Positions 2,842-58,691 of a stretch of 64,000 bases of DNA are shown here, piece by piece; position 1 is the stretch's first letter, and every line of letters starts with the position of its first letter. The DNA is from Mercurialis annua (Eukaryota; Streptophyta; Magnoliopsida; Malpighiales; Euphorbiaceae), in assembly GCF_937616625.2 (NCBI RefSeq), contig NC_065575.1, positions 3,851,501 to 3,915,500 of the forward strand, given 5' to 3'. Both the position numbers and the translations under genes were made by a program. The notes under the pieces were generated by a model, which saw only the letters and a list, made by a program, of their open reading frames with translations, ran no database searches and was not told the origin of the DNA.

Positions 2842-3860
2842 GATCAAAAGATTGATGACATGGAATATGTTAGAGAGTTTTTGATTGTATGAAATAGATT
2901 ATAGTTTCAGATGATTTGAATTGTCATCTTGATGCACATATTGCTCTTGATATGTTTTTAGTATTTTCATTTTACATTTAATGTATAACCAAATACTGAT
3001 TTATGTCAAGGCTTGAACTTGTATTACTTGGTGATCAATGGAGTTGTGTTTTCTCTCTAACTTCTGTGAATTTCTTGTACATTCTATATTATAATTTCTC
3101 TGCAACTTGATGGTCATGCCATTTTCAATCGATAGCACCAAAATGGCTTAATGCTTGCACTAAAATTATGTAGCTACAACACATTAATCGCCAAATATCA
3201 ACTGTATTTCTAACACTAAAATTAAAATATTTTGCAGTTTTCAAAACAACAACAGGAATAGAGTAATTTTTTTATCTTTTTTTAATTTGAATTCATATAT
3301 TTTTGTCAATAAAAGAGGTTGATTTTACTAAAATATGGTTCTCTGGCTCTGCCATTTGTTGCTTTAGAAATACATCCGAACATTTCTTTTTACGTCACAG
3401 TTACATATTATTAATATTGGAAGTAATTACAAATATATCTATGACTATACGTATAATAATCGACAACTAATCAAGTTAATGGTACTGAAAATAAAAGGAA
3501 AAAAAATTACATATATGATGTCTCGACTTTTTTAATCTGTTATCTCAATCTCTGAACTTTATTTCTTTGATGTTTCAACTATTTTAAAGATACATCTAAC
3601 AAGTGCATCTATCTGTTTTTCAATCACCGATACGCTAAAAGGACTAAAATGTATACTATATTATACTTCCCTATATGCAAAATGACAAACTATAATATGA
3701 AAAAAAAAGGTAATATTGTTGGCCTTTTAGTATTCCGATGATCGAAAAATGACTAAAATCACTCAATTGATACATATTTACAAAGTCGAAATATTAATTT
3801 AGAAGATATAAAAGTTCATACACCACCATAATTACAAATTAAACACACAAAAATATGAGC
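2842..3860. other. intergenic region between GRAS and WSD1-like genes
   Basis: This holds the 3' UTR of the GRAS gene and the 3' end of the opposite-strand acyltransferase, so the two genes converge. A weak fold-back lies at about 3625-3765, with CTAAAAGGAC on one side and its approximate complement near 3724-3735. No gene was seen. Confidence 0.5.
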
Positions 3861-6800
3861 TTAGGCAGCATCAGGTCCTTTGTCAAGAGCAGCATTCTTA
3901 ATAATGTTTAGTGACTCCTCAAGATGGTCACAAAGCTTGTGAGGATTAGGGATTACATCTGGATCAACTGCTACCACAATTGTCATCTTATTAAAATAGC
4001 TCTGATAATGAATTGTCAATGCCTGTGAAATTTAATATTGTAAACATTGTCATTATAAAAATTTAGCACAATAAATTAGTGATTGTTCTTGTAAAAATCC
4101 AATCGGTGGCCGATCCGGAGAACCGTCGGTTTGGTGTCCAACCGATTGGACCAGTTCATTGTCAAAAGCTAACACAATAAACTAGTGATCAACCTAATCA
4201 GTGGCTGAACCGAAGGACAGTCGGTATACTATCCGACCTATTGGACCAATTCAATCTATCGATCCGATGTTTTTCATTTTTTTAGTATTTAAAATTGTTT
4301 TTAATGATTAAATCAATATAAGTCCAGCACAAAACGATCAAAATCAATCGAAAATCAAATAAAATCTATCAATGATTTAAATTTATGATTTTAACCTACT
4401 TTGAATGGAATAGTCGGAGTAGTCGGTCCGGTACTATTTTTAAAACGGTTTTTGTGATAGATTAAATTGATTAAATTGAAAAAAATAAATGCAAGAATAT
4501 AATTTAAATTAATTAAAGACAAAGGTGAGAAGGGTATGTACATGAGGATGGCCATAAACAGTTGGGGCAAGAAATAGAATTGGATGACCATAAAAGCTTA
4601 TTTCTTCAAGAGGACCAACCACATTTGAATATGCCATTGTAGTATTTGATAGAAATCTGTGTGCTATACCTGCAGCTACCTGCATTTTTTACCATAATAT
4701 ATCACAAAATAACATATTCATTTTTTAGCCTACTTTTGCTCCTTTTCAAAGGAATTGGTTACTGAAAATATATTTTTTATATAATGGGGAGGGTACCCGC
4801 TTGGCCCGGCCAAATCCCGATCCGCTTGAGACGGGCCTGGACACTATTTTTTGCATCAAGCCCGTATTAAGTTCGTCTGTTTAGGGGGGACTTTGCGCGT
4901 ATATTTTGTTGTAATCTGGACTCGGAATAGCCCGATCCGATCCCGAGAAAACTATTATAAAAGCATGATTTAGCTAAATATTTTGTCCGAACTGGACATG
5001 ATTCAGGCTTGAATTTTCATTTTTAAATGTAAAGCTCGTTCAAACTCGGTCCTTTAACAAATATACATTATAGTCCCTAAACTTCATTTTGTAACTATTT
5101 TCTCCTTCAACCTCTATTTTGTACTCATTTAAATTTACAAAAAATAAACCATTTAATACTTATTCTTTTATCAATGTATTTAGTCAAAATGTTATAAACT
5201 TAGAAATGTAGATAGGTACCTTGACTCCGAATATGTCGACTGCGAGCTTGGCGATTCGGAAAGTGCAAGGAGCTTCGAGAGAGAGCTTTTTTCGATCAAT
5301 TGTAGCTTTGGCTTGACGAACATACTCTAATGCCTCTTTTTGTATGCCAATTTTGAAGGGCAGAACAATGTAGCCTATTCTATTACCCCATCCCCATTTT
5401 GTCTGCTTTGATTCCTTTGACATCAATTCTGCCAAACTCTATAAATCAACACACCATCATTATATGTGTATATCGCGGTATGCATTCCGTTCAAATCAAA
5501 CCAAATCGAAATTTTACTTTTTTTTTATACAAAATCGACCGAACTAAAATTAAAAAGACATAAAAAATTCCAAATGGAATTGAACCAAATAAAACCAGCC
5601 GATTCCGTTGATTTGTTGGTTCGATTATTTTTTTCAGTTCGGTCTCCACTAAAACTTAATTGGAAACATTTTTGTTCCTAATCGGACCAAACTAAAAAAT
5701 CAGATGTTTTACAATTTCAAACCGAACCAAGCCAAATTTGTCGGTTTGGTTCAATTTATTGGTTTGATTTGAACGACATTGTTTAAGATAAACTACATTT
5801 AGTTTACCTGAATTCCTGGAGTTGGTCTTAAGTTCATTAGAACAGTTGCCCTAAGTCTAATCTTATTTTGCTTTGCTTCTCCTCCCTTTTTGTCATTCTC
5901 ACCTGTTTTTTTATTCAACCAAAAAAAAAATCTGAATGATCTTAATGATTTTGAATATACTAGATATTTTTTGTTTTTCCTTAAAATATTAAACAACCAC
6001 TTGTATAAGTTAATTCATTTCATTTGAGACCCGGATAATCAACTAATTAAAAAAAAATAGAGAACATTCCCAAAGATATTAATGATATTCATGTATGAGT
6101 TCTAAAAATGAATTATACTATTTCTATTTTTATTTTTTTTTCAAATCATAGGCGGTAGTTTATTATTTAAATATTCAATTGTCATGTACGTAGTTATTAA
6201 TTATGGTTGAATGCATTAAAAACAACATAACTAATAGACAAAATTACTACTATAATACATAAGAGTCGATGTAATATTTTCTTTTTACAAATTAATTTAT
6301 TTTATCTAAATAAATTCAAAATTTTAACATTTGTGATTTTCTCAAATTGTGTATCAATTTCGTAGGGAGGAAGTAATTCATTTGAGAGTTAGATACCCAA
6401 TTAATGTTATAAATATTTCATACCTGCAGAGTATTCATAAATCCTAAAGGTAAAGCAACAAAATGACTGTTACGTGCAAAAGTTAATAGGGCTTTTTACA
6501 TAAACATCTAACATTTGTAAAAATATTACTTTTATACGGGTGAGAGTTTTCAATATGAAAACTATCATATACGCTGAAAATTATTACTTTTTTACGGATC
6601 TAATATATATACTACTCCAAATCAAACCCTCATAAACCAAATAATTTTCTCTCTCATCACAATTAATTTTTCTCTCCTCTCTCTCAGATCATCTCTCGCA
6701 ACTTGTATCTCTCTCAATTCATGTTTTTCTTAACCGAAATATCAAATTAATCTACAGATCGACGTCATCTTTCAACAACATTGTGACATTTCGTCTTCGT

Positions 6801-40547: not shown

Positions 40548-43333
40548 AATATAGTCCTTACAAACCTTTTTAAACTTTTCATTTTATAATCTTGTGCCTT
40601 TTTAGACGTTTTTCTGCAAAAATTGATCTATTGACCGTATAAAACAACTAAAACAACATCAAATATGGCACCTGAACTTTAAAATATTAAATATAAAGAT
40701 TGGACTTTTTTATAATTGAAAAAAATAAAAAGTTGAGATATGAGATAACACATGTAGTAAAATATATTTAAATCGAAAACAATATAAAAGGTGGGAACTT
40801 TTATGAACAATACGCCTCTACTTTTGGAGGTGCATGGTATCCGTACATTGACGATAATTAAAATTATTTCGAAAGAGTTTACTAGTATATGTTTGCTATT
40901 TTTTGTAAAATTGTATACTAAATTTTATATAAAAATATGCTTATATTTATTTTTTTATTAGATCATTATTATTATTGATTTTGATTTTTTAAAATTTTAA
41001 CTAATTTTCTATTTTAAAATTTATGTGAATTCTTACATCTTTTGAATTTATTTGAAAAACATAAGCTTTTGAATTAAAATAAATTTCATTTTTAATAATT
41101 TAATTCTTTAATTGAGTCAACTAACAAAGCTAGAAGACGAAATGAGAGCTAGTGTAATTAGTCAACAATGAGAGGATACACAGTTGACTTTAAAAACTCG
41201 AGGGGTGAAAGGTGAGTTTGATAGAAACTCAAGGGGGTGTTTGTAAAATAACCCAAAACTTACAATTACATAACGTAAACATTACGTAATTAATAGTATG
41301 AAATTATAATAGTTGTTAAAAATGTGGGGACCTAATCACTTGGTTACTTTTTCGCTCAAAATTAAATTCGCACAATAAAAATGCTACATGCCAATCTTTA
41401 GGATAACATAAACATAAGTCTCCAACAGGCAAAAAGACTTCAACAGCCAAATTATTAGATTAACAAATTATTAATTTTATATCAACGAAAACACCTTTTA
41501 AAGTAACATAATCTTACAAATTAATTATTATTATTACAACATAGAGTAAAATCATTTATCATAAAGTTTGCTTTTATAGTGTCCATCAGCTACTTAAAAA
41601 AAATTTTTGAGTTCGTAATAATTTGGATAGGTTCTCTCCATATTAATTAAACCATCATAAAGTTTGAAGTTTTAGTAGTTAGACCATTAAATTTGGTGGT
41701 TGAATGTTTATTTGTCATTACTAATTTATGAGAATTTCTTACCCATTAAATTTGAGAATTTATGAACCCATTTTTACAATACTCTGAAATTGATAAAGAA
41801 TTTAAATTAATAAATCTAATGTGAGTATAGTTTACTAACATCCGATTTAAGCAATAGTAATTTCTCAATAATTCATACTTGAAAATTAGAGGATTGAATG
41901 CTTCTAATATAGACATGACAGATCTCCTAATATTAATCATTGAACATGCAAACAAATGTCCTATAGCCAAAATAGTTATATGTATATTTTACTAGTATGA
42001 TTCAAAATTTCTAACTTTCTTCCATATGAATTAGATTCCATGCATATATAACAAACTTCATAATCACTAACATTTAAAATTTTCTTGGAAGGATCTAAAT
42101 ACTCCATCCATTCCAAATTGATAGGTAATTTAAGACAAATATGGATATTAAAAAATTTAAGTTCTCTAGATAAAATGAGTTAATATATTAAAAAAATACC
42201 ATACTCGCCCTCATTTAATATAGTGACAAATTTTGTCTTATAGTGATTTTTGTTGTCTTTTCAAGATATTCCCTATAATTAATGAGGGTATGTTTGACAA
42301 TTACTTAATGAGATAAATATCTAGTGCCTATAATTTGGGACAAAAAAAATAAAATAGTGTCAATTTGGGACGGAGGGAGTATTACATAAAGCCTAATAAA
42401 TTGTAAAACCATTAAGAAAAAGAGTATCTCACTTTTCATATCATCTCTTGAAAGGTTAACATCCATCTCTATTCTTCAATATATAAGATCTAGCTCAATT
42501 GAAATTAGTATGAAACTTTAGATGATTCAAATATATACTAGGAGATGTTTTTTTTTTGTGCAACATAACATTTAGCTATGTAATTATATAAAAATGAGAA
42601 ATAAAAAAATCACCATATACATCATGATAATATTATTTGTGATAAAAATCGGACTGAGTTCAATCATTCAATTGATGATCAACGGTTTGATTCATTAAAA
42701 AAAATTGTCAAAAACAAAGATAACGGTTCAATTGAGGTTTGGCCAATTTTTAACTAGTTCCAATCAGTTTAACGAAATTTGGATATCAACAGCAGTTGAT
42801 TTTAATAAAAAAATCATAATTTTAATTAACCAATCCAACTTGTTGGATTATTTAAAAAGATAGTTGGATATTAAAGATCGAATCCTTCCAGTTCAGCCCC
42901 TAATTCTGCTATTAATTAATTGTTAGAATAATAATAATAAATACAATGGATGATATAGACACATAATTGAAAACATATTATATAAACATTTAATTAATTG
43001 GAACTCATGTAAAACCTAACATAGTCCACGACATACATCAATTCGTTATAAATTTACCGTTATATTTCAAAATTTTCCCTCTTAAACACACCAACAAGTA
43101 AGGTCGTTCGAAAACCGACCAAAATCGAACCACACAAACAAATTTAGTTTGATATTGTAATAACAAAAATGACTGTTTAGTTTGGTTTGATTTTGACCAT
43201 TAAATTCTTTAATTAGGTTCTAATAGAAATCAAACGAAAAATAAATAAATAGACTAAAAAACTGACCGAACCGACTACCTCAATTAAGTCTGATTTAAAA
43301 AATTACACTTTTTCAAAATTTCACTTTAGTTAG
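40548..43333. other. gene-poor region left of the retrotransposon
   Basis: Apart from the Stowaway element at 42102-42379 and a CGGTT-rich repeat at about 43090-43320, no feature is supported. A 74-codon open frame on the minus strand (41746-41970) has no recognisable domain or regulatory context. Confidence 0.4.
42102..42379. mobile_element. Stowaway-type MITE
   Basis: 278 bp with left end CTCCATCCATTCCAAATTGA and right end complementary to CTCCCTCCGTCCCAAATTGA, flanked by TA on both sides (42100-42101 and 42380-42381). Confidence 0.85.
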
Positions 43334-43746
43334 TGATGGATATCACACCCGAAACAGTACCAGAAGACAGTGGCATGACACAGATCCAGAACGGATAGGA
43401 CCAGTCACAGGTCCTTGACCCAGTACTTAACGATAACTAACTAATAGCTCGGATAAGTCCAGCTTCCCTGAAGATCAGGGATAAGGACGAAGAACATCTC
43501 ATCATATCCAGAAGATGAGATCAGAATAAAGGAGAAGACTCCTAGTACAGCACAATGACTATGGTGTATATAAACCAAGCCCTAAGTCAGGTAAACCTAA
43601 TTTCACTCATATTCACTCTCAACACTACTCCAAACTATCTGACTTAGGCATCGGAGGGTATTCGAGCCAACACCGGCTCGAATCCTTCTAACCTATCTTC
43701 TTTTGTAGGTTGGATCAAACTCAGACCGGCAGTTCAAGAACCATTA
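43334..43746 (+). repeat. 5' LTR
   Basis: 413 bp starting TGATGGATATC and ending GAACCATTA. The last bases are TTA instead of the usual CA; this boundary is chosen because both LTR copies share it and it leaves a perfect 5-bp target duplication. By eye it is identical to the 3' LTR. It contains a TATATAAA box and two perfect hairpins. Confidence 0.93.
43567..43574 (+). promoter_or_regulatory. TATA box of the 5' LTR
   Basis: TATATAAA lies about 180 bp before the LTR end in GGTGTATATAAACC. The predicted transcription start would fall about 30 bp downstream, defining U3/R. The same box occurs in the 3' LTR at about 52700. Confidence 0.65.
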
Positions 43747-43748
43747 TT

Positions 43749-43766
43749 TGGCGCCGTCTGTGGGAA
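43749..43766 (+). other. tRNA primer-binding site
   Basis: TGGCGCCGTCTGTGGGAA begins 2 nt after the 5' LTR. TGG matches the universal CCA end of a tRNA, and the GGCGCCGTC start is typical of plant gypsy elements. Which tRNA serves as primer was not determined. Confidence 0.8.
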
Positions 43767-43824
43767 CGATCAGTTCGTTTTCTACGTACTTAAAAATTCT
43801 TAATTTTGGTTTCTTGCCGAGAGA

Positions 43825-46800
43825 ATGAATAACGAGGAAGAACCACCGCCACCAGGAGTGGTGGTAACGACGGGAGCTCTTCCCATAAGCAGCGGCCCGA
43901 TTCTTCCCCCTATAGCTAGCACCGGAGGAAGAATTGCACCAGGAGTCAACCTCACTCCCCCAACAACAGGAGTACCGTACGACATTACTCCACCGCCCCT
44001 GAGAAGGGGGATTCTGGGACAGACGCAGTCCCCATGGGGTTATTACACCCCCCAGTATCAAGCACCTCTGTCGTATCCGCAATCAGGATGGTACCCAGGA
44101 TATCCTCCTTGGAGTTATCCCAGTTACCAAGGATACCAAAGACCAGTCCAACCAATTCCGTTCCCGTCGTTAGACACAGAAGGGACGGTGACATCAACTA
44201 CGACTGTTCCGCCATATGTACCGCAAGGCGTACCATTGCCTCCATTGTACCATGAAGCAGTAATGAAAAGTGTTAATGATTTTCAGGATTACTTGGTGGG
44301 ACTAGCCAACCAGTCAGCAGAACGACATGCAGGGAAGGAAGCACAACCTACGATCCCAGTGGAGAGACGCAGACTCGAAGCCCAGACGCAAGATAGAGGA
44401 GCGAAAGAAGGAGCGAGGAGAGGGCGATCTGAACCAGTGCCTCAGCGAAAAGACGCAGACAAAGATAAGGCGGATGCCCGTCCACAGAACAAAGAAGGAG
44501 AATTGGGGAACAAAGAGAAGGATGCAGGCGCAGAGAAAACAAAGAGCAATCGGATCTACCTTGACGATGATCGCGTGTCCAAGGAGGCCGTATCAGCGCA
44601 GAAAAAGAAGAAGGCCGGAGAGAAAGACAGAGAAAGCCACTCCTCAAACAAGAGAAGAGGAGCAGAGGAGCAAATAGACATCGAGGAAAAGATCAATAAC
44701 GCAATGAGAAAATTTCGAGAGGAAGGAAAGGGAGGAGATGAAGACAAGGAGGACGAAGACTCACCCCTCAAATCTGAAATTCAACTGGTACGGTTCCCTT
44801 CGAGATTTAAATTACCAACATTTGACTCTTTTGATGGAACAGGAGACCCGAAGAGCCACATCTCTAAGTTCAAAACAATTATGATGCTACAAGACGTGAC
44901 AGACCCAATGCTCTGTAGAGTGTTCCCAGCAACGCTGCAGGGTTCGGCACAGAAGTGGTACTCACACCTCAAAGCTGGCTCAATCGGTTGCTTCTCTGAT
45001 TTGGCCACAGGATTCAAAGCACGTTTCCGGACTAACATTCCCTTACAGAAAAATTCCAGTGACTTGCGAAAGTGCAAACAAGGAGACCAAGAAACGCTGA
45101 AGAACTTCGTCGAAAGATTCAATAAAGAGGCAGTCCAGATCGAAAATCTCAACCACGACACAGCCATAGAGGCTATGAAGATGGGAACCCGATTCGAAGA
45201 ACTCCGAGACAAAATCCTGATGAAAAAGCCAACGACCTTCCAGGACTTGATGCTGATAGCACACAAATATGTGGAACTAGACGAAGCAAGAAGAACCCTA
45301 ACAAAGCAGTCGGAGACAACGAAGCAAGATAGCCCCAGGTACCGAGGAAAGAAGGAAGAAGAGAGACCTCGGACACAGAGATTTGGAGGGCTGAGCAGAC
45401 CTTACGATTTCACGCCATTGAATCGAGCCCCAGTCTATATACTCAACTGGATGAAACAAAATCGAGTGCTGTTTAATACCCCCAGAAGGATGGACCCAGA
45501 CAAAGAACGGGACAAGAGCAAGTATTGTCGTTTTCATGAAGGTTACGGCCATGACACAGATCGTTGCTGGGACCTTAAAAGAGAAATAGAACAGCTAATC
45601 CAATCCGGCGTGCTAAGAAAATTCGCCCACGAAAAGACAGGAGAAAAAAGGAAAGGAGACGCCATAGAAAAAGAAGAACAGACGAAGAAAGCCAAAGAGG
45701 TCGCAGGAGTAATACATGTCATCGAAGGAGGAGACCCTTATAGCAACTCCCAAAAGAAGAAGAGGAACCGAAGAGGCTCTGCGACGATCTTCGCAATCGA
45801 AAGGGAAGTAACACAAGAAGTCTCATTCGGCCCCGAAGATGGCGGACATGTGCGAGGACCTCATAATGACGCATTGGTGATAGAGGCTGTCATAAGAAAC
45901 CACATGGTTAAACGCATCTTGATAGATGAAGGAAGTTCGGTGAACTTACTAACCCTAGAGGCCTTCAAGGAGATGAAAGGATCAATTACTGATTTACGAA
46001 GAGCGTCTGTCCCACTCATCGGACTCGGAGGAAAGCCGATACGGCCAGAAGGAACTGTGAACCTGTATGTAGAGCTAGGAGAGAAGACCGAAGGGCCACT
46101 CAAGAAACTGCATGCCCAGTTCAACGTGGTGGATCTACCTCTAGCATACAATGGAATCTTTGGCAGACCTTTCTTGTACCAATCAAGCGCGGTAACCAGT
46201 ATTAGGTTACTGACGTTAAAGATGCCTACCCCAGAGGGAACAGTGGTAGTAAGGGGAAGCCAAGAAATGGCCAGGGAATGCTGCATGATAACAACGGAAG
46301 ATAGAGAAAGCCTACCAATTGCCACTTTCCCAGGGATAGTCGTAGACGAAGAAGAAGTAGAAGGCGCAGAACCAGTCGGAGACATGGAGGACTTCAAAAT
46401 AATTGCGAACAAGATAGTGAAGATAGGGACAGAGGTCCCAAAAGAAGTAAAAGAAAAAATACAGTCCGTCCTACAAAACAACTCAGAGTCATTCGCCACA
46501 GAGCCAACAGAAATCAAAGGAGTCGACCCAGAAGTGGCTTCACACAAGCTAAACATAAAACCAGGGAGCAGACCTGTGGTGCAAAAGAAACGGCGATTCA
46601 CAGAAGAAAGACAAAAGATCATCGCGGACGAAGTTAGAACATTGGAAGCGGCTGGTTTCATCCGAGAAGTGTTTTACCCAGACTGGTTAGCGAATGTCGT
46701 CCTAGTAAAGAAGTCAAATGGGAAGTACCGAATGTGCGTGGATTTCACTGACTTGAACAAGGCTTGTCCAAAAGACAGTTACCCGCTCCCAAGCATAGAC

Positions 46801-49722
46801 CAGTTAGTAGACTCAACCGCATGCTACCTCTTGTACAGTTTTGTAGACGCAGCGCAGGGGTACCACCAGATACCCATGGACAAAGAAGATCAGGAGAAGA
46901 CTTCCTTTGTAACAGACCAGGGGACGTACTGCTACAACGTCATGCCCTTCGGACTGAAGAATGCAGGAGCAACGTACCAGAGATTGGTCAACTTCATGTT
47001 CAAAGATCAATCAGGAAGGAATGTAGAAGCCTACGTGGATGACATAATTGTGAAGAGCCTTACGGAGGAGACACACGCCCAAGACCTAGAAGAAACTTTC
47101 TCAGTCTTAAACAAATTCAGCATGAAACTCAACCCAGCCAAATGCGCCTTCGGGGTCAGAGCTGGTAAATTCCTAGGATACCTGATCAGCCAACGGGGCA
47201 TAGAAGCTAACCCCGAAAAAATCCAAGCTATAGCAAACATGAAGCCTCCACAGAGCATCAGAGAGGTGCAGAAGTTGAATGGCCGTGTCACAGCTCTGGG
47301 ACGCTTCATCTCTTCATCGGCTAAAAAATGTTTACCATTTTTTAAGCAGCTAAGGAATATGAAAAAATTCACTTGGGACGAAGAGTGCCAGAGAGCGTTC
47401 GAAAATCTGAAGTCTTTCCTGACCCAACCACCACTACTGAGCAGACCCATCGCGGGAGAGACGTTATACCTATACCTCTCAGTAGGGAAGGAGACAATCG
47501 CATCTGTCCTAGTCCGAGAAGAAGGGGAAGAACAGCAACCTATTTATTATGTAAGTAGGACACTTAAAGGCGCAGAGCTCAACTACCCAACCATCGACAA
47601 GTTGGCATTAGCAGTAGTGGTTACGACAAAGAAGCTCAAACCGTACTTCCAAGGGCACACAGTCGTCGTCCGGACAAACCAACCTTTACGCAAAGCTCTC
47701 CATCGTCCAGAAACATCGGGAAGACTGGTAAGCTGGTCGGTACAGTTGGGAGAGCACGATATAAGGTACGAGCCAAGAAAGACGCTGAAGGCACAAGCAT
47801 TGGCGGATTTCGTCGCGGAAATGACTGAGAAGCCACCTGACGCAGTCTCAGAGGACATAACCTGGAACCTGTTCGTAGACGGAGCCTCCAGTGAACAGGG
47901 GGCGGGAGCAGGAATAGTGTTACTCGGACCTCATAAGATAGTTGTTGAGCATGCAGTGCATTTGAAGTTTCGAGCTACTAACAATGTGGCAGGTACACTG
48001 AACATTCTTTTTTCCTTTTCCTTGCACATGATTACTTAGATGCTCATGTCTGCCTGATGATGTAGCAGAATATGAGGCCTTTCTAACAGGACTTACACTG
48101 GCAAAAGAAGTAAAAGCAGAAAAGCTGAGGATCCACAGTGACTCCCAGCTGGTCACAAGTCAGATCTTGGGCCAATTCCAGACGAAAGATGCAAATATGG
48201 CGAAATACATGGAAAAAGCGAAGGGGATGCTAAAGGAAATAGAAAGGCATGGCGGGCAATGGGAGATAATCCCAATACCCAGAGAAGGAAACACACGGGC
48301 AGATGCCCTGGCAAAGGCAGCTGCGGCAAAAAACCCCCTGTACCTCTCACTCTACATGAAAGAGGAGAGGACGAATCCCATAATAGACGAGGAAGAAATT
48401 TTACCAATCACAGAGATGGATTCTTGGATGCAACCCATAGTTGCATACTTGAACGACGGAACAGTCCCAGAAGGGAGAGCAGAAGCAGCCAAACTAGTGC
48501 GAATATCGGCCGCCTACTCCATGATAGAAGGTACCTTGTACCGGACCTCAGTCACACACCCATGGTCCAAATGCATTTCAGTAGAGGAGGGAGCATATGT
48601 ACTGAAGGAAATCCATGAAGGAGATTGTGGAGCGCATGAGGGAGCAGCCTCTCTAAGCAGGAAAGCATTACTCATGGGATACTATTGGCCAACCATGAAG
48701 AAAGACGCAGAAACAATGGTGAAAAAATGCGACAAGTGCCAAAGATTTGGCACTATCATAAGAACTCCAGCAGCCCACCAATCAGCAATTGGAAGTCCAT
48801 GGCCCTTCATGACTTGGGGAGTGGACATACTGGGACCATTCACCCCAGCCAGGGGACAAGTCAAGTTTATTGTAGTAGCGGTGGACCATTTCACCAAGTG
48901 GATGGAAGTACAACCAATGAGCACCATAACGTCACAGAAGATCATCAATTGGCTGTCAAACGAAGTCATGAGCAGGTAAAACTTCAAAGTTATATAAATA
49001 AAGACCTTTCAAATGACAGAATACTAACACGTAACAGGTTTGGGACACCACACACCCTAGTCACAGACAACGGGAAACAGTTCGATTGCGCAAAGTTCAG
49101 GGAATACTGCGCCGAGCTAGGGATCAACTTGAAATTCACTTCAGTAGCACACCCGCAAACCAACGGACTCACAGAAGTAACTAACCGCACTATCCTGTCT
49201 GGAATCAAGAAGAGACTCGGAGACTTGAAAGGGAGATGGATAGACGAACTATACCATGTCATATGGGCGTATAGAACAACTCCCAGAAGGGCCACAGGGG
49301 AAACACCTTTCCGACTCACTTACGGAACAGAGGCTGTCCTCCCCGTAGAAATGGGAATGCCCACACTAAGGGTACAGATCATAGACGAAGAGCGCAATGA
49401 AGAAACATTGAAGCTGTGCCTGGATCTACTGGAAGAGAGAAGGCACCAAGCAGCCATACGCGCAGAAGCTTATCGCAGACAAATGACTAGGTATCACAAT
49501 GCCAGAGTCAAAGAACGAAGTCTATCAGAAGGAGACTTAGTCCTTCGAAAAGCAGAAATAGGGAAAGGAGCGGCCGGAGTAGGAAAACTCGAGCCCAACT
49601 GGGACGGTCCTTACCGAGTCACGGAAGTCGTAGGAAAAGGAGCATATAGAATAGCTCAATTAGAAGGCACACCATTGCCTAGAACATGGAATATCGAGAA
49701 TTTGAAGAAATATTTCCAGTGA
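43825..49722 (+). CDS. gag-pol polyprotein of the Tat retrotransposon (two putative introns)
   Basis: The frame opens at 43825. It encodes a Pro-rich then charged N-terminus, the retrotransposon gag domain (about residues 330-500, with WYSHLKAGSI), a CX2H-type zinc knuckle (CRFHEGYGHDTDRC, about residue 567), a protease motif (ILIDEGSSVN, Asp about residue 701), reverse transcriptase (YVDD about residue 1070), an RNase H lacking its first catalytic Asp, and an archaeal-type RNase H starting FVDGASS (about residue 1350). The frame then closes at 48039. Coding resumes at 48066 and again at 49038, giving the rest of RNase H, the integrase HHCC finger (CDKCQRF), the DDE core (WGVDILGP, LVTDNGKQF, and E in NGLTEVTNR) and a GPY module. 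Exons 43825-47992, 48066-48975 and 49038-49722 total 5763 nt (1920 codons plus stop) with consistent phases. The product is the element's own replication machinery. Confidence 0.88.
47993..48065 (+). other. putative 73-nt intron in the RNase H region of pol
   Basis: It starts GTACACTG after GGCAG and ends in TGATGATGTAG before CAGAATATGAGG. It contains a T-rich tract and in-frame stops, and its length is not a multiple of three. Its removal joins ATNN to AEYEAF, the normal RNase H sequence of this family. Splicing is inferred; a decayed insertion is the alternative. Confidence 0.65.
48976..49037 (+). other. putative 62-nt intron in the integrase core
   Basis: It starts GTAAAACTTC after ATGAGCAG and ends CGTAACAG before GTTTGGGACACC. 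It splits the integrase between the first and second catalytic Asp. Removal restores NEVMSRFGTPHTLVTDNG in frame. The length is not a multiple of three and it contains stops. 62 nt is near the lower limit for plant introns. Confidence 0.65.
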
Positions 49723-50002
49723 AAGATGTAACAAACGAATAATGAATAAAGTTGCATCTCGCATTTTTTCCATTTTCTAACATATCCTCTATATTATCAT
49801 ACATGACCATGACTCAGTGTATAGACGCAACAAAAAGCAAACAGAAACAACATTCATAAAGTATCGAAAATGTTCAGAAATGACAGAAAAAGGAGAGTTT
49901 CCCATGAAACCCTCCAAGCAAAAGAAATAAAAGTACAGAAGTGCTACAGCAAAAGTAGTACAGAAATTAGAAAGCTAGCTAAACGGCCCAACAAACGGCC
50001 AA
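49723..50002. other. convergent 3' gap between pol and antisense gene
   Basis: These 280 bp separate the stops of the sense gag-pol and the antisense gene. Transcripts of both genes probably end or overlap here. No terminator can be called with confidence. Confidence 0.4.
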
Positions 50003-52071
50003 TCACTCTTCCTCTGGATGGGTCGCTCCCTCCTTTGGACCAATCGTATCTTCCGGAATCTTGTCCTCCAAAGTTTCCTCGATTACATCAGAAGCAGAGG
50101 GATCTTGATCCTGAGCATCAGAAAGATGAGAGTCTGGGACTAATACCAAAGCTGTCTCTGACGCGGAGGATTGACCCAGAGGACCCTTGTCACTACCAGC
50201 ATCTGGGTCAGAACCCGATAATTTCTCAGGAGGATCTACAGCATCTTTCACACCTTCGCTGATAACATCAGAAGGAAGCATCGGTGATACAGACGACCCA
50301 GCTTTCTTGGCAGCCACCTTAGCCGCAACGCGTTGACCCAGAGCCCGGAGGTCAATTGACAGAAACTTGTTGATGTCATAGTCGGGATAGTCTTCACGTA
50401 CTATCTTGATCACGGTGGCACAAAAGTCAGTCAAGCACCCGCTCACATAAATATTTGCATCCCTTTTGTTATTCTGCTGCTCCTGAGACAACCTCTCACA
50501 TGTAGCCTGAAGCTGCAACAACGTAGCTTCACGGTCAGAAACTTTCTTCTCTAGGATCTTAACACGATCCAGGGCTGTTTGATGCTGCTTGTTCAGCTTC
50601 GTCCTCTCCGCAGACATAGAGTCCCGTAATGCAGCCCTCTCTTTCTCATGCCTCAACTCCAACGCCGCAGTCTCCTCCACCTTGCGACGGACCACGGCAT
50701 TCCCTTGAATAAGCTGAAAACAAGAAAATAAGGGATGAGGAAAGAGAAGACACTAAAAGGTCACAGAGAAAAGAAACCAGAAGAAATGAATACCTGCAGC
50801 AAGGCAGAATCAATCCGGTCACAAGCACCTGACCCAGTACAACTGTCCCAAACTTCCATATCCTTCGGAAATTGCACAAATTGAGAAAACAAAGCACCCA
50901 CCTCAGAAGAAGAAGCCGACAGCCCCTCAACATTCTGCTCCAACCACTCTCTAGGATTGGGACAGGCATCTAAATTTTTCTTAAGGCGTTTCGCAAGCCC
51001 CTGTCTGGTTCGGTCACGGAGATCACGCCCTTTCTTGCTAGAGGAAGCCGGAAGTCCAGTCTCAACGCCCTTCTCAATCTTGACAGAAGGACGAGGAGGC
51101 AAGGATGCAGGACGAGACCCAGTAATGACAACAGAATCATCATCAAAAGACAGAGTCAAGGCATCAAGAAAGTCCTCCCCCATTCCTGCAAAGGCAACAC
51201 GCATAAATAAACATCTAAATATAATAAAAGCAAAACAAGGACTAACAAGAAGCATACCCTGAGACGCAGACGTCAAATCTACAAAAGATAGAGGTGAAGG
51301 AGAACGGCAAGACTGGGACAGGGTACCATCACTCTCAAGAGGCCCCTCAATCACAGTACGAGGAGGCAACTCAATATGAGGGAACTTACGGTACAAGTAC
51401 CTATCCACTAGGTCACAACAATCAAACAACTGAGACTGGGCATTATCCACTAAAGAATCTAGGGCTTCTGAGTCAGTAACGCATAGGGGAGAAAAAGATA
51501 GGGACTCAGACTCATCCACCCAGTCACAGGGGAAGTTAGCAAAAGCACTATCGTGACCCACAACAAAGAAAGAACGTTGCCAACGCTTAGTAATCTTTGG
51601 CAGAGCGTCAATCAGACGTTTGCCTCGATGAGCAGCCAAACGATGATAAAATTCATTACTCCTACGCGTTATGAAGAAAAGCTCATTCAACATACCCAAA
51701 GAAGGAGACAGGCCTCTGTCACAGACTAACTCAATAAAGCAACACAAGACACGAATGGCGTTTGGATGGATCTGACCTAAGGGAATCCCATAGTCTTTAA
51801 CAAAAGACTCAATCAAAGGATCTAAAGGGAAACGTAGGCCACAACGGAATTGCTCCTTATAAACGATTACCTTGCCATCTCCCACATTCTCATTAGCACT
51901 CATACGAGCACCACAAACTGAAAGAGAATAAGCAACTGGAATACCAAAATCATCACGAATTTCACCCAAAGACTCTCTATCAATATTAGTGACGAACGAA
52001 CTTAAAGAATTACGATAATCAACGGCAGCGCCAGATGAAGGGAGAGACACAGAAGACCTAGTACGAGTCAT
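50003..52071 (-). CDS. antisense gene of the Tat element (gypsy-type transposon domain plus coiled coil)
   Basis: Three exons on the minus strand, 52071-51258, 51185-50794 and 50713-50003, total 1917 nt (638 aa) with agreeing phases. Exon 1 encodes a domain of the putative gypsy-type transposon/Transposase_28 kind: FRCGLRFPLDPLIESFVKDY, GQIHPNAIRVLCCFIELVC, then a Trp/Phe-rich segment (RWQRSFFVVG). The middle is Ser-rich and basic (KKGRDLRDRTRQGLAKRLKK). The last exon begins with a long heptad-like coiled coil (EETAALELRHEKERAALRD) and ends in an acidic tail. Introns are 72 nt (51186-51257, GTATGC...TTTGCAG) and 80 nt (50714-50793, GTATTC...TTTTCAG). The first is in frame without a stop, so an unspliced form could also be read. 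Extra antisense frames of this kind are known in Tat elements; their role is unknown, with suggested links to Gag handling or silencing being speculative. Confidence 0.8.
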
Positions 52072-52453
52072 ATCTAGTATGGAAAATCAAGAAAGTAGAC
52101 GAAGCTTACCTGGAAACCACAAGGAAGAAAAATAATAATGGCAGCGAAGAAAAGCAAGAAAATTTCGGAAGCAATCAGCAAAGAACAAGATAGAAGAAAA
52201 TGGAAAGAAAAAAGAAGAAGAAGAAATTTAAAGAAGATCTAGGTAACCGTGACAGCAGTTACTAGGATACAAACGTGGCGGACATTCAGGAACATGAAAT
52301 GATGGCAGTTTGAATTTTGAAAAACGAAATTGAAAAGACAAGGGAGGAAGCAGTTACTCCCAACGGGCAAAAAAGCAAAAGCGTACCACGAGAAACAGGC
52401 CCAAACGAATGGCCCGGACCAACAAGCATAAATACTTGAGAGACACAATCTTT

Positions 52454-52466
52454 AGGGAGGGACTAA
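52454..52466 (+). other. polypurine tract next to the 3' LTR
   Basis: AGGGAGGGA followed by CTAA lies immediately before the 3' LTR start at 52467. It is the expected primer for plus-strand DNA synthesis, though slightly interrupted by CT. Confidence 0.65.
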
Positions 52467-52879
52467 TGATGGATATCACACCCGAAACAGTACCAGAAGA
52501 CAGTGGCATGACACAGATCCAGAACGGATAGGACCAGTCACAGGTCCTTGACCCAGTACTTAACGATAACTAACTAATAGCTCGGATAAGTCCAGCTTCC
52601 CTGAAGATCAGGGATAAGGACGAAGAACATCTCATCATATCCAGAAGATGAGATCAGAATAAAGGAGAAGACTCCTAGTACAGCACAATGACTATGGTGT
52701 ATATAAACCAAGCCCTAAGTCAGGTAAACCTAATTTCACTCATATTCACTCTCAACACTACTCCAAACTATCTGACTTAGGCATCGGAGGGTATTCGAGC
52801 CAACACCGGCTCGAATCCTTCTAACCTATCTTCTTTTGTAGGTTGGATCAAACTCAGACCGGCAGTTCAAGAACCATTA
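52467..52879 (+). repeat. 3' LTR
   Basis: 413 bp, the same length as the 5' LTR, with no difference found by eye. It is followed directly by the target duplication GTTAG. It could also supply promoter activity towards the downstream pectinesterase gene, whose start lies about 930 bp away; that is inference only. Confidence 0.93.
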
Positions 52880-52914
52880 GTTAGTTTACAACAGATTGCA
52901 TTCCTATTAACAAA

Positions 52915-53215: not shown

Positions 53216-53806
53216 TGCTAATAAGCAGAAACATTAAAAACTGAATGAAATAAAAAAAATCAAATTTAATCTGAACATCAAATTCAATCGATAAATTCAG
53301 TCCAGTTGAGTTTTACAATAATAAATATTGAGTTTTTAATTCAATTTAGTCTTTGATATTGTAAATCAAACCGACTGATTTAACTTAATTTGAGAAAATT
53401 CAATATTTATATAATTTAAGTTAAATATAGTCCAATTTTTAAAAAAATAATTTAACTCAATTCAGTTCGATTCAATTCGGTTCGAAACAAAATTCATAGC
53501 TCTACTAAACCAACAAATAGAAGTAAACATAAAGAAGATCCACCCAAGTGAAGGCAAAAGCACATACAAGTAGTAATAGAAGCCAGCTACTCAAAAGCTC
53601 CTCTACAAATAGACTTCACACCCACCTCTTATTTACTCTCATCTCCATTTCATTTCATTTCCACCTTATTATATAATTTATTTTCCATTATAAATACACA
53701 TTCCTCATTTAAAATAATCATAACCATATCTTATAATTCCATTTAAATAACACTTTCATTTATGCATAAATACCCTTAAGCTCACTACACCACTCCTCAC
53801 CGACAA
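53216..53806. other. upstream region of the pectinesterase gene
   Basis: AT-rich, with further CGGTT-type repeat debris to about 53500. The last 250 bp contain CT-rich patches and TATAATTTATT- and TATAAATACA-like motifs (about 53672-53700) that could serve as core promoter. Confidence 0.4.
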
Positions 53807-56800
53807 ATGAAACCGCTCGTCTACGGCCGTCTCGGCCCCTCAGATCACGCTCAAATCTCTTCTCCGCCTCATCTCTCCGCCCAATCTCCGCCTCATCCTC
53901 CTCCTCCTCCTTCCCGGAGACGGAAGATTCTCTTCTTATCAGTCTTCTCAATTACTCTCATCATCGCCTCAGCCGTCTCCGCCACTTTACTTATCGGCCT
54001 CCGCACTCGCGCTTCCTCCGACCACTCCTCCCCCGCCGTGGCGCGGAAACCGACTCAGGCCATTCAAAAAACATGTGGAAAAACTCGCTATCCAAGTCTC
54101 TGTGTCAACTCGTTACTTGATTTTCCCGGTTCGTTAACCGCCAACGAGCAGGACCTGGTTCACATTTCGTTCAACATGACACTTCAGCACTTCACTAAAG
54201 CGCTCTATTTTTCATCTACTATATCCTATCTCGACATGGATACACGTGTACGGTCAGCTTACGACGATTGTCTCGAGCTTTTGGATGACTCTGTCGACGC
54301 GCTTACACGCGCTCTCTCCACTATTGGAGGTCCATCAGCTAACAATGCGCGTCCGCAGGCGATCGGTGGGAGCAATGAGGATGTGGTGACGTGGCTGAGT
54401 GCTTCGCTGACTAATCACGACACGTGTACGGAGGGATTTGAAGGGCTGAGTGGCTCAGTGAAGGATCAAATGGCTAATAAGCTGAGGGATTTGTCTGAGT
54501 TAGTTAGTAACTGTTTGGCGATTTTTTCAGCGAGTGATAATGACGATTTTGCCGGCGTGCCGATTCAGAACAAGCGGAGACTGTTGACGGAGAATGCCGA
54601 GACCGGTGAGTTTCCGAGGTGGTTAGGGAGGAAAGAACGGAGGTTACTGAGTTTGCCGGTGTCGGCGATTCAGGCGGATATTATTGTTTCGCAAGACGGG
54701 AACGGGACGTGTAAAACGATTGCCGAAGCAATTAAAAAAGCGCCGGAGAAAAGTCTTCGGCGAACGATTATTTACGTGAGGGCAGGAAGGTAATATCTTA
54801 AACATTTTAAAAGTTGATTGAAAAGTTTATACTTTTTGTTGGGTTTCTTTTTGAGTAGATGGCATAAATACCCCTGAAGATAAAATAAGTGGCATTTTCT
54901 GGTGAAAATGGTGATTGCTTTAATTGACTTCTTTAAAACAATCATGAAATTGAAAAGATTTTTTAGTGATTAAGTATTCACGTAAATTCGTTTAAAAAAA
55001 ATTGATAAAAAAAGATTTGACTACAACTTTTACATGTTCAAAAGTTTATTTTAATATTGAAAATAAATCATCAACTTTTTATTCTATATGTTATAATGAT
55101 AGAAAAAAAAAAATTTAATATGATGAATTATTTGTAATCCAAAATAAAGGTGTGCATCAAACAAAATGACCGAAAAATCAAACCTAATGCGAAAAATATT
55201 ATGTCACATTAATTTTTTTTTATTCTAAAATTTTAATTTATGTATCGCAAAATGTTGCTATAAGATTAAAATTTAACATCTAAATTCAACTAACTTATAA
55301 ATTTTAGCTAAAATAAAACAGTATAAAATTTAGTGATCTCAAAAATTAATTTTTTTTTTTTTGATATTGAAAAGAGAGCACGTGCTGCGAAGGTAATCGA
55401 ACCTACGACTTTATCAGAATATGTTGTTCAATACTTATACTATTTGTTCAGACTAGTATATATGTTGGTTTTCTGTCTTCTACGTATGATAATTAAATTG
55501 GGGAATTATGTTAACTTAGCTAATAAGTAAGAAATTACTAACAACATTTTCAAATAAATATCTATGTTGTTAATTTAAATTGGAATACTCTATTTACTTT
55601 ATAGTAAGCATCATCAAACTTTATGAGAAAAGAAAAAGAATAGTATTAAACAAAAGGAGTTTATAAATTTTGCAGATATGAAGAGTCCATTTTGAAAGTG
55701 GGGAGGAAAAAGCAGAATTTGATGTTCATTGGTGATGGCAAGGGTAAAACCATCATTTCAGGTGGTAAAAGCGTTGCTGATAATATTACCACGTTTCACA
55801 CTGCGTCATTTGGTAATATTTTTTATCTTTTAACCGCTGTTAATTTACTGTCTTATCATTTTGTTTGAGATTTTAATTATGCGGGCCATATATAATGACT
55901 ATGCATGATAGTATTGTTTTCTATTTGCACGTGGTCTGTCATCCCTTCCTTTTCATGTCATAAATGGGTCATGTTTATAATCGAAAAATTATTGCACTCA
56001 ACTGGTATGCCACGTTATTCGTAAAACAAACCACACCTTTTATAATTATAATACTCCCTCCGTCCCAATAAAGTTGTCCACTTTACCTTTATCACACAGT
56101 TTAAGAAAAGCAATTATTGTTTGTGGGTTTTGTGAATTTTTACTTACTTTTCTTGTCATACCCCTATTTAATATAGGACCCACTTGTAATTTACTTTCAA
56201 TTTACTCATTAGTGGATTTTAAATAGGGATAATATAGAAAAATTAAGTGTAAAAGTTAGTTACTTTTTGAAAGTGGACAAGTATTTTGGGACAAAAAAAT
56301 TTCTCAAAGTGGACAACTCTATTAGGACGGAGGGAGTATGTGATAGTATAAAATCTAGTAATAAAATTTACTTATAATAAAAATGTACGATCTATATAAA
56401 ATAATACATTAACAGTTTTAAATTTAAAATTAAATAATATTTAATGAAAAAAAATTAATTGTGTTTAAACTAGACATGCTTATTTAACTTGTTTTTTTGT
56501 ATGAATTATTTAACTACTTTGGATATGTAATTAACTGCGTCATAAACGAATTGATTCGATTAGCTTTATTAACATCAAATTCTTATTTGTTTAATTTTAT
56601 TTTTACCGTATCATTTAATTGCATCGTGTCTAAAATTGACAGATTATAACAATATTAAATAAAATAGACATTAAACCCCCCAAACAAATCTGAAATTGGT
56701 GCATTATGAGATATTGATGGGAGTACGACTAGTGTTTGTTTCCCTATAATGGTCAAAAAACTTGCTACCTTTATTATATTAAGATGTGTTTGACCCAATT

Positions 56801-58691
56801 TCATAAACAATGTTAGGGTTTAACTCATGTGGGCATGTGTAGAGGAATCCAAAAAAGATATTGATGCTTAGCTTAACATTAAGTTGCCATTTTAAAACAA
56901 CAACGTTTAAATATTCTCATTCCATGCGTAACTATCACAACAAATTTGCAATTATGCAATTAATAATGCCAAATAGATAGTGACCTCTTCTCAAACCTAC
57001 TATATCAAACGGTCGGTTCAGTTAAAAATCGACCAATTTAGTCAAAATTAAATTAATCGAAATTCTTTTACCTCTTTAACACGATCATTCGAATTAGTAA
57101 TTTTAACCGAAATTAAATAAATTGAAATCTTAAAAAATACAAAAACTTACCGGCTTAATGAATATGTTAAATTTCAGTTAAATCGATAAAAAATAATTAA
57201 AAAATTACATAAAACTATAAAATATTCAGTTAATTTAGTTAACCAAATCTAAAAACCTTTTAACCGTAATCGAGTAAAATTTTCCTATTATTCAAACAGA
57301 CTAAACTAATTAAATTAACCATAAAAAGTTGATCGAACTTAATCTAAATAATTTATTAATTATTTAAATCAGTTTAACCAACTATTTGCTCCCCCTGCCT
57401 ATGATTGGTTATTATCAAACCGAATTCAATTGATGGCCAGAATTTAAAGAGTAGAGAGAATCACATTATTGGAGATGGGTCACAACCATCACATGAGTAA
57501 TGTACCCTATACAACTTGGCACTCATCAGCCATCAATGCTTACTCAAGATAATAGAAAGCTACTACTCTTTATTTTATTATACTCTTTTTGCTATCATTT
57601 TCCAACACTTACTTAAATCAATCACACTAATACTATAATCAATCTCCACAGTATATTGATATTAATTGCTGATTATAGTGGGTCCCACGTAATCAATTTA
57701 CTGCCGGAATGGAAACCGTAAAAAAAACGCAAACGGAAAACACTAAATTGAGAAGTAACAGATATAGAATTTTAGAGTTGCAAAAGTATTTTTTACTAGA
57801 ATGTGTTATAAATATAGAGTTTTGAAGTTTTAAAAGTGATTCTGAAAATAAAAAGAAAACGATGAAATGTAAAGCTGGAGAAATTTATGTGCAACATAGA
57901 TCTTAATTGATCACATTTTATATTAATCATGCAACTCAAATTTTTATCACTTTGATTCTCACTTTTGTGTCTGTTATTCTGATCAATCTACAGCTGCAAC
58001 CGGAGCTGGTTTTATTGCTCGCGGCATAACCTTCACCAATTGGGCTGGTCCGGCTAAGCACCAAGCTGTGGCTCTTCGAATTGGAGCTGACCATGCCGTA
58101 GTCTATAATTGCAGCATAATAGGATACCAAGACACGCTCTATGTACATTCAAATCGCCAATTTTTCCGTGAATGTGACATATACGGAACTGTCGACTTCA
58201 TATTTGGCAATGCTGCCGTAGTGTTTCAAAACTGCAGCATTTACGCTCGTAAGCCTATGCCGTTGCAGAAAAACACCATCACCGCCCAAAACCGCAAAGA
58301 CCCTAATCAAAATACGGGTATTTCAATCCACGCTTGTAGGATCCTCGCCCAATCAGATCTCGAGGCAGCGAAAGGTAGCTTCCCGACATATCTAGGTCGT
58401 CCGTGGAAACTGTATTCACGAGTTGTGTACATGTTAACATACATGGGCGATCACGTTCATCCAAGAGGATGGTTAGAGTGGAATGCAACATTTGCACTCG
58501 ATTCACTATACTACGGTGAATACATGAATTACGGTCCGGGCGGGGCTGTTGGGCAACGGGTAACATGGCCGGGGTATCGGGTGATTACATCAATTGTGGA
58601 GGCAAAGAAATTCACAGTAGCAGAATTTATTTATGGATCATCATGGTTGCCATCTACTGGAGTAGCATTTTTAGCAGGATTATCAGTATAA
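53807..58691 (+). CDS. pectin methylesterase (pectinesterase) with PMEI-type prodomain
   Basis: Three exons (53807-54789, 55676-55812, 57994-58691) total 1818 nt, 605 residues, phases consistent. The N-terminus is Pro-rich and cytosolic-looking, followed by a membrane anchor/signal at residues 41-64. The PMEI prodomain (about residues 85-245) has the expected cysteines. Two RRLL processing sites (257-260 and 278-281) precede the catalytic domain. Active-site residues are all present: Gln397 (QAVALR), Gln419/Asp420 (GYQDTLY), Asp441 (GTVDFIFGN) and Arg509 (LGRPW). It is therefore a group 2 (type I) PME: the prodomain is cut off by subtilases in the Golgi, and the enzyme removes methyl esters from homogalacturonan in the wall, setting stiffness and Ca cross-linking. 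Intron 2 (2.2 kb) carries a Stowaway MITE and a CGGTT-rich repeat; intron 1 carries a SINE-like remnant. Confidence 0.94.
55350..55475 (-). mobile_element. tRNA-derived SINE remnant in pectinesterase intron 1
   Basis: On the minus strand a B-box-like sequence (GTAGGTTCGATTACC) is preceded about 50 bp upstream by a poor A-box (TAGTCTGAACAAATAG) and followed by an AGCACGTGCTCTC stretch ending in a run of about 13 A. This is the layout of plant tRNA-derived SINEs. No target duplication was identified and the 5' end is uncertain. Confidence 0.4.
56054..56336. mobile_element. Stowaway-type MITE in pectinesterase intron 2
   Basis: 283 bp with left end CTCCCTCCGTCCCAATAAAG and right end complementary to CTCCCTCCGTCCTAATAGAG, flanked by TA (56052-56053 and 56337-56338). 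The ends are the best preserved of the four Stowaway copies in this window. Confidence 0.9.
57000..57395. repeat. CGGTT-rich repeat in pectinesterase intron 2
   Basis: It has words such as GGTCGGTTCAGTTAAAA near the left and GTTTAACCAACTATTTGCTC near the right, in partial inverted arrangement. The right end resembles the ends of the element at 61251-61649, indicating one repeat family. Confidence 0.4.

Follow-up and report, generated by a model that had tools for sequence, protein, structure and literature searches.

Two putative mini-introns in the pol frame of a recently inserted Retand-type retrotransposon of Mercurialis annua

The stretch analyzed here (the window) comprises 64,000 nucleotides (64 kb) of contig NC_065575.1 of Mercurialis annua and holds a long terminal repeat (LTR) retrotransposon at 43334-52879. 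The pol frame of this element is broken by two inserts with GT..AG borders, one inside its archaeal-type RNase H (aRNase H) and the other inside its integrase core. Comparison with related proteins suggests, with a probability of about 0.8, that the two segments are spliceosomal mini-introns gained by a Retand-type Tat family of M. annua and inherited through several of its subfamilies. Removal of both segments by the spliceosome is, on the same sequence comparisons, very likely.

The stop maps reveal one frame open at 43804-48036, a second at 48032-48976 and the first frame again at 48640-49719; from the first ATG (43825) as far as the stop at 49720, these are the only two breaks. In the Pfam search, the PF13456 (RVT_3) match of the second frame is limited to profile positions 38-123 and the rve match of the third to positions 60-102, which places the breaks in the two domains where an earlier note, made from the letters of the window alone, had located them. 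Insert 1 spans 47993-48068 (76 nt) and insert 2 spans 48976-49037 (62 nt); both carry the GT start and AG end described in that note, both contain stops (at 48037 in insert 1 and the TAA at 48977-48979 in insert 2), and neither length is divisible by three. The note had given 73 and 62 nt, and the second value stands. The first is corrected to 76 nt because no residue intervenes in the NNVA|EYEA of relatives, a sequence restored by the CAG end at 48068, whereas the alternative TAG end at 48065 (73 nt) would add one alanine. TAGCAG is a tandem (NAGNAG) acceptor, and therefore either end might be used. Joining the three coding stretches should, by their lengths, keep the frame open to its natural end; they total 5757 nt, or 1919 codons. 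The features of the element, all on the forward strand except the last, are the following.

43329-43333 (+): target-site duplication GTTAG, left copy
43334-43746 (+): 5' LTR, 413 bp, TG..TA, identical to the 3' LTR at 413/413 positions
43825-47992 (+): exon 1, with gag, presumably a protease region (named from a motif, as Pfam gave no match there), reverse transcriptase (RT), gypsy-type RNase H and the start of the aRNase H; Pfam matches to gag, RVT_1 and RT_RNaseH
47993-48068 (+): putative intron 1, 76 nt, GT..AG, phase 1, T-rich
48063-48068 (+): tandem acceptor TAGCAG in putative intron 1, first option 73 nt
48069-48975 (+): exon 2, with the remaining aRNase H, the integrase zinc domain (PF17921) and the first catalytic integrase Asp
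48976-49037 (+): putative intron 2, 62 nt, GT..AG, phase 2, A+T-rich
49022-49028 (+): branch-point-like TACTAAC, its A at 49027, 10 nt upstream of the end of putative intron 2
49038-49722 (+): exon 3, with the remaining integrase core, an SH3-like tail and the stop at 49720-49722
52467-52879 (+): 3' LTR
52880-52884 (+): target-site duplication GTTAG, right copy
50003-52086 (-): antisense reading frames between pol and the 3' LTR, 50761-52086 (PF04195, Transposase_28) and 50003-50752, typical of Retand

The LTRs, near-identical according to the earlier note, differ at no position, and because of this the insertion must be recent. With 7e-9 substitutions per site per year, the 95% upper bound on its age is about 0.5 million years. 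Within the window there is no second copy of the three coding pieces, and the insert sequences have no match longer than 20 bp outside the inserts themselves.

If the two segments were damaging insertions in one dead copy, their GT..AG borders would be coincidental. Both inserts combine these borders with exact restoration of conserved sequence on removal, the GT..AG reading being found in exactly one of five equivalent placements for insert 1 and one of six for insert 2. Given the dinucleotide frequencies of the element itself (GT x AG = 0.0041), the chance of such borders is about 2% per insert and about 5e-4 jointly, which puts a figure on the improbability already argued in the earlier note. 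Moreover, identical LTRs leave little time for damage. Composition also sets the inserts apart, each in one measure only: the T content of insert 1 (39.5%) is matched by none of 5532 coding windows of equal length and the A+T content of insert 2 (72.6%) by 2 of 5574, but the A+T content of insert 1 (60.5%, matched by 257/5532) and the T content of insert 2 (24.2%, matched by 897/5574) are unremarkable. Plant introns are reported to be on average more U-rich than exons (PMC3735527), and at 62 and 76 nt both inserts exceed the 59 bp given for the shortest verified introns of Arabidopsis (PMC6161759).

The state of both positions in distant relatives was addressed with three protein searches (119 of 119, the best 120 of 1018 and the best 120 of 197 matches), which gave 351 distinct proteins: 102 environmental open reading frames (ORFs), 214 others and 35 from M. 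annua. The window proteins were split at both joins (J1 for insert 1 and J2 for insert 2), and each piece was mapped separately onto the relatives. The environmental ORFs, chosen by source label and assumed to have been called without introns, weigh more because predicted splicing may already have been applied to annotated proteins. Among the matches listed, these ORFs are contiguous at J1 in 44 of 44 testable cases and at J2 in 63 of 64, the single exception being one residue off. The 214 other proteins are contiguous in 147/150 testable cases at J1 and 138/142 at J2, where the exceptions correspond to a duplicated domain (P0068), multi-part matches (P0101, P0117) and shifts of 1-4 residues (P0012, P0110, P0113, P0280). 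Removal of the inserts thus restores the family sequence, as the earlier note had claimed, and since the relatives are contiguous exactly at J1 and J2, the contiguous state would be the ancestral one. The absence of the segments from distant relatives then means that the introns would be a gain of this group, and it does not refute them. A scan of viral contigs returned three pattern matches and no relatives.

The closest proteins among the matches listed come from M. annua itself. All 35 were mapped, and 17 fall in near subfamilies, 14 by the tree described below and three (P0124, P0237, P0241) by identity. The comparison with other copies proposed in the earlier note could thus be made at protein level. 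Both positions recur: at J1, six of the 17 reveal intron 1, nine are contiguous and two do not cover the join; at J2, four reveal intron 2, two are contiguous and 11 do not cover the join. At J1, P0001 (21 residues, 63 nt) and P0236 (25 residues, 75 nt) carry a translated insert exactly at the join, P0249 holds the 3' part of intron 1 in translation, and P0235, P0238 and P0240 depart from exon 1 at the same codon to be joined to other acceptors. At J2, the intron is revealed by its donor in P0121, P0124 and P0127 and by a translated 3' end in P0241. In frame translations, the inserts of P0001, P0236 and P0241 resemble those of the window. For example, one frame of insert 1 of the window begins with GTLNILFSF and another finishes with LLRCSCLPDDVA; the P0001 insert starts GTNMFYSF and the P0236 insert ends LLRCSCLADDVA. 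The window, P0001 and P0236 inserts look like one intron that has drifted, its position being common to near relatives and its interior and length differing (76, 63 and 75 nt, respectively). Since segments with diverged interiors occupy these two positions in several subfamilies, damage to a single copy is very improbable, and the earlier note's preference for mini-introns over damaging insertions is supported.

The distribution of these signs was followed on a tree of the 150-residue piece before J1. Its 33 rows are the window itself and relatives found in these searches, 22 from among the 35 M. annua proteins and 10 others. Signs of intron 1 appear at four places (P0236, P0001/P0249, P0235/P0240 and P0238) within a group of 15 rows that includes the window, and signs of intron 2 appear with P0127 and P0121, which belong to different parts of this group. 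Support is modest for the 15-row group as a whole (85/58) but firm for its two parts (97/95 for 11 rows and 100/99 for four), and the group together with P0160 reaches 97/93. No break at J1 is seen in P0160, which lies just outside, or in the seven rows that represent other lineages of M. annua. Because the signs are spread over the branches of the tree, both introns seem to predate the split of these M. annua subfamilies. Any wide loss or absence of the introns elsewhere would be read from contiguous proteins only.

Several observations weigh against two inherited introns. Nine near proteins are contiguous at J1 (P0002, P0003, P0120, P0121, P0124, P0127, P0233, P0234 and P0239; P0237 and P0241 do not cover it) and two at J2 (P0003 and P0120). 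P0120 is contiguous at J1 and J2 alike and is identical to the three window pieces at 150/150, 302/303 and 225/227 residues, which also makes it an argument for damaging insertions, given that it could come from an intact copy free of inserts. The contiguous proteins may be spliced gene models or intronless copies. The NCBI protein models with odd joins may be predictions only, and the inserts of P0001 and P0236 are open in frame and so were left unspliced by NCBI. As for the splice signals, the donors GTACAC (insert 1) and GTAAAA (insert 2) are weak past GTA compared with the usual consensus, and the branch-like CTGAT (insert 1) and TACTAAC (insert 2) lie about 10 nt from their acceptors, below the usual spacing.

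The odd joins could also mean that the signs in the M. annua proteins are artefacts of gene prediction, with introns invented to bypass mutations. Indeed, in six models (P0235, P0238, P0240, P0121, P0124 and P0127) the J1 or J2 donor is connected to a different acceptor, at the cost of conserved residues. However, invented introns would not be expected to begin at the same codon in different copies, and P0001, P0236, P0249 and P0241 hold translated sequence resembling the window inserts, which leaves this explanation a small chance. Smaller still is the chance that ribosomes bypass the segments, taking off and landing on like codons with no splicing of the RNA. Like codons followed by a stop are the pattern of known bypassing, and here segment 1 has GCA before each of its ends, while segment 2 has AGG across each of its ends and is followed by a stop. 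On the other hand, like codons arise automatically from AG|G..AG|G borders, bypassing would have to accommodate GT..AG at both segments and lengths that vary between copies, and we know of no cytoplasmic case in plants.

Regarding the origin of intron 1, the end of exon 1 (47980-47992) is repeated at the end of the intron (48056-48068) at 8/9 bases, or 9/13, and the P0001 protein has NNVA on either side of its insert. This suggests a gain by insertion with target duplication, by tandem duplication or by break repair. Such flanking repeats are reported in Drosophila to be about equally common at gained and conserved introns (25% and 26%; PMC3443670), and for this reason the repeat is not pressed here as evidence of gain.

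The spliceosomal reading, in which both segments are introns, has direct consequences for the coding capacity of the element. In the aRNase H sequence NNVA-E-YEA, intron 1 interrupts the codon for the first Glu, a residue we take to be catalytic by likeness to RNase HI motifs, and intron 2 lies between the first and second catalytic aspartates of the integrase. The gypsy-type RNase H upstream appears, by the motif we assume for it, to lack the expected acidic residues. This agrees with the degeneration of this domain reported in Tat elements (PMC6317226). As the earlier note had foreseen, the unspliced reading ends before the integrase, at the stop at 48037, 1404 codons from the ATG and 15 codons into intron 1. 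If intron 2 alone were retained, its TAA would end the exon 2 frame and leave an integrase lacking the second Asp and the Glu. With the introns in these places, unspliced RNA would encode neither a working RNase H nor a working integrase and would be readable only as Gag-protease-RT plus the degenerate RNase H. RNA spliced at both sites would give the whole polyprotein, with the sole RNase H that has its catalytic residues and a complete integrase.

Moreover, a spliced template would produce an intronless daughter copy, erasing the introns in one cycle. Both a very young copy and several subfamilies have kept the introns, and this suggests that unspliced RNA usually serves for packaging and copying. 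Splicing would then separate a genome pool from a pool of enzyme mRNA, and that the balance of retention and splicing sets a useful ratio has close to even odds, leaning to the doubtful side. More tentatively, the introns may act as a double splicing lock, preventing genomic RNA from coding for enzymes that would degrade it or integrate its cDNA; splicing would mark the mRNA, and the locks would last through many transposition cycles since unspliced RNA is packaged. It is also conceivable, if rather unlikely, that the introns are real and unregulated, near-constitutively spliced and maintained by packaging of the RNA that escapes splicing, with no ratio to set. All the sequence evidence fits this equally well, but persistence in several subfamilies, despite the loss expected whenever spliced RNA is copied, suggests a steady pool of unspliced template, and both introns are placed where retention removes catalytic residues. 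If the separation of pools is true, it would bear on the old question of how a single retrotransposon RNA can be genome and message at once, and the two pools would be directly countable, unspliced RNA being the genome and spliced RNA the enzyme mRNA. The family would also offer a case in which a mobile element has recently gained introns, the ends of intron 1 carrying an exon-like repeat.

Apart from pol, the antisense Transposase_28 frame contains an intron-like GT..AG stretch of 72 nt, in frame and T-rich by eye (51186-51257, -), and a second one of 80 nt (50714-50793, -) joins 50761-52086 to 50003-50752, so that mini-introns may be present on either strand of the element. Outside the element, a likely host gene, of pectinesterase type by eye (53780-58691, +), starts about 0.9 kb past the 3' LTR, with a distance of about 3 kb between its pieces (54793 to 57927).

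Finally, the element can be compared with known systems. The earlier note had called it a Tat element, which holds and can be narrowed: by its domain order and antisense ORF it is, on sequence criteria, a Retand-type element (Tat, Ty3/gypsy). The Pfam order, PF17917/PF17919, then PF13456, then PF17921, places the aRNase H between RNase H and integrase, an arrangement reported to be common to Ogre too (PMC6317226). The antisense ORF at 50761-52086 (-) matches PF04195 with 27.5 bits against a cut-off of 26.2, and such an ORF is reported in all but two of 63 Retand clusters in a 2025 survey (PMC11963269). Domain order, antisense PF04195 ORF and the sizes of LTRs and internal region match that survey, whereas the region between pol and the 3' LTR, about 2.7 kb here, is under its range of 2,933-6,566. 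The survey describes one- and two-ORF forms of gag-pol, and the word "intron" does not occur in its text (PMC11963269). Membership in Ogre was considered and rejected, gag through RT and RNase H being one open frame (43804-48036). Ogre is a Tat element like this one, but in the present element the frame running through PROT-RT is intact, and the two putative mini-introns fall within the aRNase H and the integrase core. Plant LTR elements rarely contain introns; a review of December 2025 presents them as generally intronless and singles out Ogre and EVADE as notable exceptions (PMC12786077). In the open-licence literature, searched by titles and abstract starts, no report was found of introns within the aRNase H or integrase of a Retand element, and two mini-introns within enzyme domains of such an element would be new. 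In the Ty1/copia elements BARE1 and EVADE, splicing is reported to make Gag (PMC3735527, PMC12786077). The likeness is that splicing separates RNAs of different coding capacity; however, the spliced RNA of BARE1 and EVADE encodes Gag only, whereas in the element described here the spliced RNA would give the full Pol.
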